Shown piece after piece: positions 27,981 through 32,144 of a stretch of 32,144 nucleotides of DNA. The first letter of the stretch is position 1; the number at the start of each line of letters is the position of its first letter. The position numbers and the translations under genes are program-made. This stretch comes from Candidatus Limnocylindrales bacterium (GTDB lineage Bacteria > Chloroflexota > Limnocylindria > Limnocylindrales > CSP1-4). The notes under the pieces are model-generated. The model did not search any database. It was not told where the DNA came from and saw nothing but the letters and a program-made list of their open reading frames with translations. The stretch lies in NCBI GenBank assembly GCA_025450915.1, contig JANWLH010000125.1, forward strand, positions 1 to 32,144, given 5' to 3'.

Positions 27981-28036
27981 GGACCAATCGTAATCGGCCG
28001 CGCGCCGCGGTGGGTCCGTGATCCGGGCGAATCCCG

Positions 28037-28042
28037 TAGACT
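28037..28042 (+). promoter_or_regulatory. Putative -10 element TAGACT for the helicase gene
   Basis: Lies inside the ORF-track N-terminal extension of the helicase, supporting a downstream start at TTG 28114. Confidence 0.35.
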
Positions 28043-28113
28043 CGGGCACGACCCGCCCGTCCGGCAGCCTGCCCGGCGCCGCGCTCGATGGGCGCACAGG
28101 AGCCAACACCCGC

Positions 28114-29415
28114 TTGTCGTTCGATACGCTCGGCCTCTCGGCCGACATCCTCAAGGCTGTGGCCGAAGAGGGTTACACGGAGCCGACGCCCGTCCAGGCT
28201 GAGGCCATTCCCCTGGTACTCGCCGGTCGCGACGTGCTCGCGGCCGCCCAGACCGGCACCGGGAAGACGGCCGCGTTCACGCTGCCGATTCTCGAGCGCC
28301 TCAAGGCCCAGGCGAACACCAGCTTCTCGCCCGCCCGCCACCCGGTTCGGGCGCTCGTCCTGACGCCGACCCGGGAGCTGGCGATGCAGATCGCCGAGAG
28401 CGTTGCGACCTACGGCCGCTACGTCCCGTTGCGGTCGGCGGTCGTGTACGGCGGCGTCCCCATCGATCCCCAGATCAAGGAGCTCCGCGGCGGAATCGAG
28501 ATCCTCGTGGCCACGCCGGGCCGGTTGATGGACCACATGGGCCAGCGCACGGTCAACCTGAGCCAGGTCGAGGTCCTCGTCCTCGACGAGGGCGACCGGA
28601 TGCTCGACATGGGCTTCATCCCGGACATTCGCAAGATCGTGGCCGTCCTGCCCAACCGCAGCCAGACGATGCTCTTCTCGGCAACCTTCTCCGACGAGAT
28701 CCGGCGGCTGGCGAGCGAGTTCCTGACCAATCCCGCGATCGTCGAGGTCGCCCGGCGGAACACGGCCGCCGAGAACGTCGAGCAGGTCCTCTATCCAGTC
28801 GATCGCGAGCGCAAGGAGGATCTCCTCCTCTACCTCATCCGGCGCGACCACATGGAGCAGGTCCTGATCTTCACCCGGACCAAGCTCGCCGCGAGCAGGC
28901 TGGCCTCGTACCTCGACCGGCGAGGCGTCGCCGCCGTCGCGATTCACAGCGATCGCAGCCAGCCCGAGCGCACCCGGGCCCTCGAGGACTTCAAGACCGG
29001 CGAGGTGACCTGCCTCGTCGCCACGGACGTCGCGTCACGCGGCCTCGACATCGAGGAGCTGCCGTACGTCGTCAACTTCGAGCTGCCGTTCGAGCCCCAG
29101 GACTACATCCACCGGATCGGCCGAACCGGCCGGGCGGGCGCCTCCGGTGTCGCGATCTCTCTCGTCTGCATGGACGAGGTCGAGCTCCTCAAGGGCGTCC
29201 AGCGCCTGCTCAAGCGCCAGATCCCCTACCAGGTCGTCGAGGAGTTCGTGCCCGACCGCTCGGTTGAGGTTCGCCCGCTGCGCGGCTTCGGCCCTGGCGG
29301 CCGGGCCGGCTCGGGCAATGGGCGGAGCAATGGCTTCGGCGCGGGCGCCGCCACCGCCGAGCACGGCCACGCGCACCGCAAGCCGATCCGCGGCCACTCC
29401 GGAGCCTCGAGCTAG
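28114..29415 (+). CDS. DEAD-box RNA helicase, RhlE-like
   Basis: LSFDTLGLSADILKAVAEEGYTEPTPVQAEAIPLVLAGRDVLAAAQTGTGKTAAF, PTREL, VLDEGDRMLDMGF, SAT, RGLDIEELPYVVN, HRIGRTGRAG. TTG 28114 is preferred over the ORF-track GTG 28018 by homology to RhlE N-termini and an AGGAG at 28098. Confidence 0.92.
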   Translation: MSFDTLGLSADILKAVAEEGYTEPTPVQAEAIPLVLAGRDVLAAAQTGTGKTAAFTLPILERLKAQANTSFSPARHPVRALVLTPTRELAMQIAESVATYGRYVPLRSAVVYGGVPIDPQIKELRGGIEILVATPGRLMDHMGQRTVNLSQVEVLVLDEGDRMLDMGFIPDIRKIVAVLPNRSQTMLFSATFSDEIRRLASEFLTNPAIVEVARRNTAAENVEQVLYPVDRERKEDLLLYLIRRDHMEQVLIFTRTKLAASRLASYLDRRGVAAVAIHSDRSQPERTRALEDFKTGEVTCLVATDVASRGLDIEELPYVVNFELPFEPQDYIHRIGRTGRAGASGVAISLVCMDEVELLKGVQRLLKRQIPYQVVEEFVPDRSVEVRPLRGFGPGGRAGSGNGRSNGFGAGAATAEHGHAHRKPIRGHSGASS

Positions 29416-29483: not shown

Positions 29484-30767
29484 ATGACCGAACCTCGCTC
29501 GCTCGGCGCGGCCGAGCTCCTCCGATCCGTCGGCCTCCTCGCCGACGGGCCGGTCCGCTGGGGCAACCCAGTCCGGGTCGGCGGCCCGGGCGTCTACCTC
29601 GTCGAGCTGGCCGCGGCCCAGAAGACGGCTCCCGTCGATCACATGCTCGTGGCCCACTGGATCGAGCGGGTTCCGACCCTGACCCTCGATGGAGCCCGGC
29701 CGACCCAGCGCGAGCTCGCCGTCCGGATGGGCGAGTTCTGGCTTCCCGACGAGACGGTCCTGTACATCGGGATGACCAACCTCTCGATCGGCGGGCGTGT
29801 CGGCGCCTTGTTGAAGACCGAGCTCGGCGACCGCCGGCCGCACTCCGGCGGCCATTGGCTCAAGACCCTGACCGTGCTGCCCGAGCTGCGGGTCTGGTGG
29901 GCCTCGACCGCGGCCCCCGAGGAGTACGAGGACGCGCTCCTGGCGGCCTTCGCCCAGGGTGTCTCGCCGGCGGCCAGGGCCGCCCTCCGCGACTCCAGCG
30001 TGGTCCTGCCGTGGGCCAACCTCCAGTCCGCCACCGACGAGCGCAAGCAGCACGGGATCAAGGGCGCGCTCCTCGTCGACGAGGCGGACGGGCCCGTCTC
30101 CAAGGCCGAGCGCCTCGCCGCCGCCGCAGCAGCCAGGAGCGGCGCGACGGCGAGCGGCAAGCGATCGGCGGCCGACCCCACCCGGCGGACGGGCGTCCTC
30201 CGCTCGAGCAGTGCCCGGCCGCGGAGCACGACACCCCGGGCCGCGACCGGCAGCCGCGCCGCCGCGGCCGCGATCAAGGCGGCCGGCCGGCCGGCCGGAC
30301 CGGCCGTCCAGCTGTCAGCCGAGGGACTCATCGCCCTGCGCGCCGAGCTCGATGAGCTGATCAACGTCCAGCGGCCGGCGATCGTCGCCCGGATCGCCGC
30401 GGCCCGCGAGCTGGGCGACCTCAAGGAGAACTCCGACTACCACGAGGCCCGGCGGGAGCAGTCCTTTGCCGAGGGCCGGATCCGCCAGCTCGAGGACCAG
30501 CTCCGCAACGCCGTGGTCGTCGAGGGCACCGGCGGCAGCGTCGTGGCGATCGGTTCGACGGTCGTCGTCGAGCGGATGGACCCCGCGGGCGCCCTCGAGA
30601 CGACCAGCTTCAAGATCGTCGGCGCTGCCGAGGCGAACCCCAGGGCCGACAAGATCTCGAACGTCTCGCCGATCGGCGCGGCCCTGGTCGGTCGCAAGCC
30701 GGGTGACGCCGTCGAGGTCGTGATCCCCTCGGGTCGCATCGGGTTCCGGATCCTCGAGGTTCACTGA
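29484..30767 (+). CDS. Fusion protein: N-terminal GIY-YIG-like nuclease domain, basic Ala/Arg/Ser-rich linker, C-terminal GreA/GreB-type transcription elongation factor
   Basis: One ORF. GIY-like GPGVYLVEL (GVY codons 29589-29597), VLYIGMTNLSIGGRVGALLKTE (YIG from 29763), candidate catalytic Glu in EEYEDALLAAF; linker about 30110-30300; GreA core LRAELDELINVQRPAIVARIAAARELGDLKENSDYHEARREQSFAEGRIRQLEDQL followed by an FKBP-like C-terminal domain. Confidence 0.8.
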   Translation: MTEPRSLGAAELLRSVGLLADGPVRWGNPVRVGGPGVYLVELAAAQKTAPVDHMLVAHWIERVPTLTLDGARPTQRELAVRMGEFWLPDETVLYIGMTNLSIGGRVGALLKTELGDRRPHSGGHWLKTLTVLPELRVWWASTAAPEEYEDALLAAFAQGVSPAARAALRDSSVVLPWANLQSATDERKQHGIKGALLVDEADGPVSKAERLAAAAAARSGATASGKRSAADPTRRTGVLRSSSARPRSTTPRAATGSRAAAAAIKAAGRPAGPAVQLSAEGLIALRAELDELINVQRPAIVARIAAARELGDLKENSDYHEARREQSFAEGRIRQLEDQLRNAVVVEGTGGSVVAIGSTVVVERMDPAGALETTSFKIVGAAEANPRADKISNVSPIGAALVGRKPGDAVEVVIPSGRIGFRILEVH

Positions 30768-30771
30768 GCGA

Positions 30772-32043
30772 GTGGGGCTCCGGTTCGTCCATACGGGCGA
30801 CCTGCACCTCGACAGTCCGTTCCTCGGCCTCGGCGAGGCGGTTCCGGAGCGGATCGAATCCTCGTTGCGTGACGCCACGTTGCGCAGCTGGGACCGGATC
30901 GTCGGGCTGGCGATCGACAGCCGGGCGGACGGTGTCCTCGTCGCTGGCGACGTCTTCGAGGGAGCCAATCGGACCCTGCGTGCGCAGGTTGCGTTCCGCG
31001 ACGGCCTCGACCGGCTCGCCCGCGAGCACATCCCGTCGTTCGTCGTCACCGGCAACCACGACCCGCTCAACGGCTGGGAGCCGGCGGTCAGCTGGCCGGA
31101 CCTCGCCCATCGCTTCCCGGCGAACACGGTTACCAGCCGGCCGATGCTGCGCGACGGGGTCGAGCTCGCCCGGGTGCACGGCATCAGCTACGGCACCCGC
31201 GACATCACCCGGAACCTGGCGGCGACCTTCCGCCGCGATGGCGACGAGCCGTTCGCGATCGGACTGCTCCACGCCAACGTCGGGGGGATCGAAGGCCATG
31301 CCAACTACGCCCCGTGCTCACTGTCCGACCTCTCGGCGAGCGGGATGGACTACTGGGCGCTCGGGCACATCCACAAGCACGGGATCCTGCGCTCCGCCGA
31401 CCCGGCGATCGTCTACTGCGGCAACCCCCAGGGTCGTGACCCGGGCGAGACGGACCCGCGCGGCTGCTACCTGGTCGACGTCGACGAGCACGGACACGTC
31501 GCGGCCGAGTTCCAGGCGATGGACGTCGTCCGCTGGCAGCGGCTGAGCGTCTCGATCGACGGTGTCCCGACCGAGGAAGCCCTGATCGAGGCCGTCGGCG
31601 ACGCCATCGAGGCGGCCGCCGACGCCGCCGGTCGATCGATCGTGGCCCTCGTCACGCTCACCGGCCGCGGCCCGCTCCATGGATCACTGCGCCGGACGGC
31701 GGTCCTCCACGACCTGCACGAGCTGGTTCGCCAGCGCTTCGGGGCCGGCGAGCCTTTCGCCTGGCTCGAGACGCTCCGCGATCAGACCCGGCCGTCGATC
31801 GACCTGGCGGCCCGGCGCGAGGCCGGCGACCTCCTCGGCGAAGCGCTCCGCGAGTTCGAGCGCAGCCGGAACGCCCTCCGCCAGGGCCAGGAGGCCGATC
31901 TCCATGACCTCCTCGCCGACCTCTACGACCAGCCCCGGGTTCGGCGGGCCCTCGCCGGTGCGCAGCCATCGACGACCGACCTCCTCGCCGATCTCGATGC
32001 GGCCGAAGCCCGGGTGATCGACCTGCTCGACGAGGCCGGCTAG
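30772..32043 (+). CDS. DNA repair exonuclease, SbcD/YhaO-like metallophosphoesterase
   Basis: LRFVHTGDLHLDSPF, GVLVAGDVFEG, FVVTGNHDPLNGW, IGLLHANVGG, DYWALGHIHKHGIL. Confidence 0.9.
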   Translation: MGLRFVHTGDLHLDSPFLGLGEAVPERIESSLRDATLRSWDRIVGLAIDSRADGVLVAGDVFEGANRTLRAQVAFRDGLDRLAREHIPSFVVTGNHDPLNGWEPAVSWPDLAHRFPANTVTSRPMLRDGVELARVHGISYGTRDITRNLAATFRRDGDEPFAIGLLHANVGGIEGHANYAPCSLSDLSASGMDYWALGHIHKHGILRSADPAIVYCGNPQGRDPGETDPRGCYLVDVDEHGHVAAEFQAMDVVRWQRLSVSIDGVPTEEALIEAVGDAIEAAADAAGRSIVALVTLTGRGPLHGSLRRTAVLHDLHELVRQRFGAGEPFAWLETLRDQTRPSIDLAARREAGDLLGEALREFERSRNALRQGQEADLHDLLADLYDQPRVRRALAGAQPSTTDLLADLDAAEARVIDLLDEAG

Positions 32044-32046
32044 GCG

Positions 32047-32144
32047 ATGCGGATCGACGAGATCGCGGTCGATGGCTTCGGCCTGCTCCGTGACCGGCGC
32101 CTGGAGCCGGCACCCGGCCTCACCCTGATCCGCGGCGAGAACGA
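32047..32144 (+). CDS. AAA-type ATPase, YhaN/SbcC-like (partial, runs off the window end)
   Basis: MRIDEIAVDGFGLLRDRRLEPAPGLTLIRGENE: RecF/SbcC-type N-terminus, starting 3 nt after the SbcD-like stop. Confidence 0.75.
   Translation, partial: MRIDEIAVDGFGLLRDRRLEPAPGLTLIRGEN

Follow-up and report, generated by a model that had tools for sequence, protein, structure and literature searches.

What does a transcript cleavage factor do with a nuclease-like domain attached to its N-terminus? The coiled coil of GreA enters the secondary channel of RNA polymerase (RNAP) and triggers cleavage of backtracked RNA. The window analysed here, a complete contig (C125) of 32144 nucleotides from a Candidatus Limnocylindrales genome of 2.48 Mb that is about 70% complete, encodes a GreA joined in frame to a second domain bearing GIY-YIG-like motifs. 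A preliminary description of this DNA had proposed that the fusion could deliver a DNA or RNA nuclease to stalled RNAP. The features that bear on the question are listed below by window position.

28018-29415, + strand: upstream neighbour, a DEAD-box RNA helicase ending 68 bp before the fusion gene (named from its sequence, without a family search)
29484-30767, + strand: fusion gene for a 427-aa protein with a GIY-YIG-like domain, then a basic Ala/Arg/Ser linker, then GreA (same architecture in 80 family genomes)
29484-30074, + strand: N-terminal domain, predicted to be GIY-YIG-derived, aa 1-197 (AF2 model, hhalign, dN/dS)
29589-29609, + strand: GIY half-motif GVYLVEL, aa 36-42, with Tyr Y38 (alignment of 92)
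29757-29780, + strand: YIG half-motif VLYIGMTN, aa 92-99, with Tyr Y94 (alignment of 92)
29796-29798, + strand: R105, the conserved Arg on the helix that follows YIG (91/92 family members, 17/17 stand-alone relatives)
29928-29930, + strand: E149, catalytic (metal-binding) Glu by homology (kept in 62/92)
30018-30020, + strand: N179, motif-V Asn within LPWANL (Asn in 53/92 family members, 17/17 stand-alone relatives)
30075-30305, + strand: Ala/Arg/Ser-rich linker, predicted to be disordered (pLDDT of roughly 32-41 across aa 221-270)
30306-30764, + strand: GreA module, aa 275-427 (Pfam, NCBIfam, Foldseek)
30417-30428, + strand: GreA acidic tip, D312 and E315, equivalent to E. coli D41 and E44 (kept in 80/80 fusions)
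30772-32043, + strand: downstream neighbour, an SbcD/Mre11-like phosphoesterase starting 4 bp past the stop codon of the fusion gene (named by eye)

A single gene encodes both modules

The fusion ORF begins with an ATG and continues for 427 codons without interruption. Both modules and their motifs lie where the preliminary description had placed them. The architecture also extends well beyond this contig: the search for it in related genomes, which that description had advised, found the domain in frame with GreA in 80 genomes of the same family. Because the fusion recurs in about 80 separately assembled genomes, it is neither a chance event nor an assembly artefact. Across the fusions, the gap between the two domain matches ranges from 44 to 137 aa, with a median of 73. 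A scan for promoters and terminators found none.

Within the gene, the in-frame starts comprise a GTG at 30000 (aa 173) and then none until 30513, which already lies within GreA. With no start codon between these positions, the fusion gene cannot easily yield GreA alone.

The fused GreA is complete and has a canonical counterpart

The C-terminal half is a full GreA. In aa 275-427, a Pfam scan recovers PF03449 (E 2.3e-26) and PF01272 (E 1.4e-18), the NCBIfam models NF001263 and TIGR01462 both exceed their cut-offs, and in Foldseek the predicted structure resembles E. coli GreA (1grj; TM 0.88, E 4.1e-13, 40% identity). The acidic-tip region, GDLKENSDYHEA (aa 311-322), contains D312 and E315, and both residues are retained in every fusion; the role of the corresponding D41 and E44 in E. 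coli GreA is stated in PMC6829880. The complete GreA module with its acidic tip, as originally described, is thus upheld.

A stand-alone greA, whose presence the preliminary description had left to be checked, is found in the same genome, encoding a separate protein of 160 aa (G000:C113, L002:1468-1950). The suggestion that GreA is made only as the fusion consequently applies to the fusion gene and fails for the genome as a whole. Most family genomes likewise have two GreAs, a canonical one beside the fused one. In the GreA tree, the stand-alone GreAs of the family cluster with the GreAs found in f3, f4 and f5, three other families (support 100/99), and the fused GreAs fall apart from this clade and evolve faster. 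The separate canonical copy and the tree placement together indicate that the fused GreA is an additional, faster-evolving paralogue, whose origin could be either duplication or transfer.

Two further observations concern GreAs elsewhere in the tree. In the reduced-genome sister family f2, the GreAs of G040 and G044 (L224, L232) fall outside the canonical clade, among the fused type; they may be the other paralogue, or a long branch may have affected their placement. Genome G012 carries a divergent, foreign-looking third GreA (L210, G012:C219) that scores 93.8 bits against about 200-229 for the canonical GreAs of the family and may be a contamination of this MAG.

Ancestry of the N-terminal domain

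AF2 models aa 1-197 as a compact domain, with a pLDDT of 90 and a pTM of 0.87. The predicted elements run from a strand (GVY) through two helices to a second strand (YIG), followed by a helix (Arg), a further helix, a strand and a helix (Glu), an order that fits a GIY-YIG fold with an insertion between the half-motifs. Used directly as a query, the N-domain gave no meaningful match in Pfam, NCBIfam, PHROGs or PDB sequences, nor among plasmids and phages; Pfam and NCBIfam matches are likewise lacking in a set of 32 fused N-domains. In the fold search against the PDB, which had been proposed as a check, Foldseek with the N-domain model returned no GIY-YIG match, and no match of any kind among PDB and viral models. 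Direct hhalign comparison with UvrC reaches 3.9% only.

The connection to known nucleases runs through intermediates. By hhalign, the N-domain matches its phage relatives with a probability of 100% (E 1.6e-43) and a set of stand-alone relatives with 98.9% (E 1.2e-17). The stand-alone set in turn matches the GIY-YIG domain of UvrC with 96.7% (E 3.5e-10); column-shuffled controls give at most 3.1%. Searched against all PDB sequences, the profile of the relatives places UvrC and Endonuclease II on top, weakly (best E 0.0084), and the stand-alone relatives match PF01541 and PF20815 weakly (best E 3.3e-4 and 0.0051, respectively). Judged by this chain of profiles to UvrC, the N-domain belongs to the GIY-YIG superfamily, and the ancestry claimed in the preliminary description stands. 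A domain of another fold with coincidental motifs would account for the empty Pfam, NCBIfam, PDB and Foldseek searches and for the low direct score with UvrC. We consider this highly improbable given the homology that phage and plasmid relatives, with every motif in order, establish transitively, the low shuffled controls, the weak matches of the relatives to UvrC, Endonuclease II and the two Pfam families, and the fitting strand-helix order.

The phage relatives (L098-L103) are up to 40% identical to the fused domain over its whole length, and their gene sits between a terminase large-subunit gene and a portal gene, both named from their sequences. This phage gene has intact catalytic motifs, and the one member scanned against Pfam has no match above cut-off. 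Stand-alone relatives are also found on actinobacterial replicons and on those of Cupriavidus and Prevotella, among them plasmids of Mycolicibacterium, Rhodococcus, Streptomyces and Cupriavidus; they are hypothetical proteins wherever annotation exists, and none is fused to GreA. On a Nocardia plasmid, the stand-alone gene adjoins an opposite-strand gene of the thermonuclease family (L110:2929-3902).

The remaining UvrC architecture, namely the UVR, RNase H-like and HhH regions, is absent from the fusion protein in a Pfam scan, and a UvrC-sized GIY-YIG protein is separately encoded in the genome (G000:C166). The N-domain is under purifying selection within the genus of the window (dN/dS 0.12-0.17), and G36, E41, W59, W86 and W138 are invariant across 92 family members.

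A near-universal gene of one family

An N-domain profile matches 93 of the 177 genomes of the class, all within one family; the count becomes 92 once the match in G126, merely a stand-alone relative, is dropped. The domain is therefore carried by 92 of 107 family genomes, at one locus per genome, and is near-universal in the family. It is in frame with GreA in 80 of these 92, has a different C-terminal domain in seven (genera g12 and g19), is cut by a contig end within the linker in three, and in two lies beside a GreA with the frame broken by a masked stretch. At least one of the non-matching family genomes (G012) has a fused-type GreA that is cut at a contig end (L211). The same profile search finds the domain missing from the 70 remaining genomes of the class, and outside the family nothing comparable turned up among 301 genomes sampled from the phylum. 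Of the two weak matches obtained there, one (G197) is a protein of different architecture and the other a 51-aa chance match. The relatives of the window genome are labelled Chloroflexi MAGs, and their genera presumably belong to the Limnocylindria/Ellin6529 lineage.

The second C-terminal partner, a domain of about 80 aa, takes the place of GreA in g12 and g19 (listed for L012, L014, L158, L161, L162, L164 and L175). The same domain accompanies related GIY-YIG proteins of G030 and, at the opposite end of the protein, G197 (L080 and the L095 N-terminus listed). Its copies are about 34-43% identical by BLAST, and the scanned members have no Pfam match. Occurring in g12, g19, G030 and G197, it is a partner that this nuclease branch has repeatedly.

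The distribution bears on whether the fusion acts in conflict or defence, with GreA targeting RNAP on invader DNA and the nuclease domain attacking the invader. Relatives of the N-domain do reside on phages and plasmids, and there is a conceptual precedent in the predicted TPR-GreA/B-C-PIN conflict systems (Kaur et al. 2021, PMC8195603), which also join a predicted nuclease domain to a Gre module acting on RNAP and are the nearest published idea. Those systems differ in domains and distribution: they are widespread and contain no more of Gre than its C-domain, together with TPR, PIN and effectors that vary, whereas the fusion described here joins a full GreA to a GIY-YIG domain and counts among the near-core genes of a single family. 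It is not sporadic, has no PADLOC match, lacks TPR, PIN and EAD domains in a Pfam scan, and has no conserved defence genes nearby. A defence role thus appears quite unlikely.

Active-site residues drift while the fold is kept

The protein of the window retains Y38, Y94, G96, R105, E149 and N179, a complete canonical set, so it may itself be active. Across the family alignment, this full set is found in 11 of 92 members, comprising the genus of the window and a few other lineages. At position 36, Gly is universal (92/92), and position 38 is Tyr in 51 and Phe in 39; position 94 is Tyr in 53 and Phe in 37, and Tyr in all 17 stand-alone relatives. The catalytic Glu is lost in 30 of 92. Loss of the Arg and Glu in homologues, which the preliminary description had counted against a nuclease, is accordingly found in part, the Glu drifting and the Arg almost always kept. 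On the domain tree, the minimum number of changes is nine for E149, 20 for Y94, 12 for Y38 and eight for N179, and these four columns rank 63-88 of 195 by conservation in the fusion family, which is average. The stand-alone relatives have the equivalents of Y38, Y94, G96, R105 and N179 in 17/17 and the Glu in 16/17.

The metal-binding Glu had been placed in the string EEYEDALLAAF (aa 146-156), which does hold it. The alignment identifies it as E149, the residue that lines up with the Glu of the E-x-x-[LM]-I motif in UvrC and the stand-alone relatives, rather than either of the first two Glu; E147, considered as the catalytic residue, was dropped on this ground. Position 146 is Glu or Asp in 89/92, conservation is also good at E147 and D150, and E146, E147 or D150 might substitute for E149 in metal binding. 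As R.Hpy188I shows, GIY-YIG enzymes can tolerate replacement of the Asn and of the Tyr in YIG (PMC2630997).

Considered together, purifying selection on the N-domain, an acidic tip kept in every fusion and repeated catalytic loss indicate that the fold is maintained and that catalysis looks optional. Some lineages, the genus of the window among them, may have nuclease activity.

Neighbouring genes and the tethered-nuclease reading

Downstream of the SbcD-like gene, an SbcC-like ATPase starts at 32047 and runs to the contig end, so that the pair occupies 30772-32144. The arrangement of the fusion followed by an SbcD-like gene is confined to the genus of the window. A conserved operon with the helicase and SbcD was considered and rejected, SbcD being genus-only and the helicase just loosely nearby. 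The SbcD/SbcC-like neighbours are no more than suggestive of a link to repair.

In the original proposal, GreA would dock on stalled RNAP, where an active GIY-YIG domain would serve repair or clearance by nicking the DNA or cutting the nascent RNA. Several observations would agree with it: the window protein has all six canonical residues, the nearest relatives beyond the family are intact GIY-YIG proteins, and the SbcD-like gene lies immediately downstream, followed by the SbcC-like one, in this genus. On the other side, catalytic residues (Glu, Tyr and Asn) have been lost independently and repeatedly in the family with the fusion kept, the SbcD neighbour occurs in one genus only, and Met follows YIG in the window protein in place of the usual Lys (12/17 stand-alone relatives). 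We regard a tethered active nuclease of this kind as doubtful. A more specific version confined to lineages with a full active site, such as the genus of the window, in which GreA would rescue or locate RNAP and the GIY-YIG domain would nick DNA or an R-loop and pass it to the SbcD/SbcC-like pair, seems unlikely.

Proposed function and relation to known proteins

We favour the view that the protein is a secondary-channel factor of the GreA type and carries, on a tether, a GIY-YIG-derived module that binds nucleic acid, or docks on the polymerase, and for which cutting is optional (probability about 0.5). A binding-type role is preferred because the N-domain is under purifying selection, yet E149, Y94 and N179 have been lost repeatedly. 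The probable task of the extra domain is to hold nucleic acid or guide the polymerase rather than mainly to cut. By homology, tip and fold, the GreA half would insert its coiled coil into the secondary channel, and backtracked RNA would be cleaved. The N-terminal half would be a former nuclease of the mobile-element type on a flexible basic tether, positioned at the stalled complex to bind the polymerase or nearby DNA or RNA. Where the active site is complete, it may cut as well, a function that many lineages appear to have lost. Three points count against this view. Firstly, 11 of 92 members keep every canonical residue, which binding does not require and which speaks against a purely binding role. 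Secondly, E146, E147 or D150 may replace E149, and substitutions of the R.Hpy188I type are tolerated. Finally, Foldseek gave no GIY-YIG match.

The fusion shares with GreA (TIGR01462; PF03449 and PF01272) the coiled coil, the acidic-tip Asp and Glu, and the C-terminal FKBP-like domain, and differs in its added 200-aa N-terminal domain and linker of about 75 aa, and in being a faster-evolving copy beside a canonical GreA. With the GIY-YIG superfamily (UvrC N-domain, I-TevI, R.Hpy188I and R.Eco29kI) it shares the ordered GIY, YIG, Arg, Glu and Asn; unlike them, it has about 55 residues, including two extra helices, from GIY to YIG, and its catalytic residues drift in the fused family. The stand-alone phage and plasmid proteins are its closest sequence relatives, but lack GreA and keep nearly all catalytic residues. 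The preliminary description knew of no GIY-YIG-GreA protein, and our literature search agrees: among the papers searched, none mentions both GIY-YIG and GreA and none describes the fusion.

Work cited in PMC6829880 reports that E. coli GreA impedes DNA break repair. A GreA with a nuclease-derived domain, encoded in one genus beside SbcD/SbcC-like genes, thus allows a connection of transcription rescue with repair to be tested. The search for relatives has also brought to light a wide branch of GIY-YIG proteins, carried by phages and plasmids, that lacks annotation. If the favoured reading is true, this family has a bacterial elongation factor with a domain taken from nucleases of the selfish-element type, repeatedly stripped of catalysis with the fusion kept, and would offer a natural experiment on what a GIY-YIG-derived domain does at a stalled polymerase.
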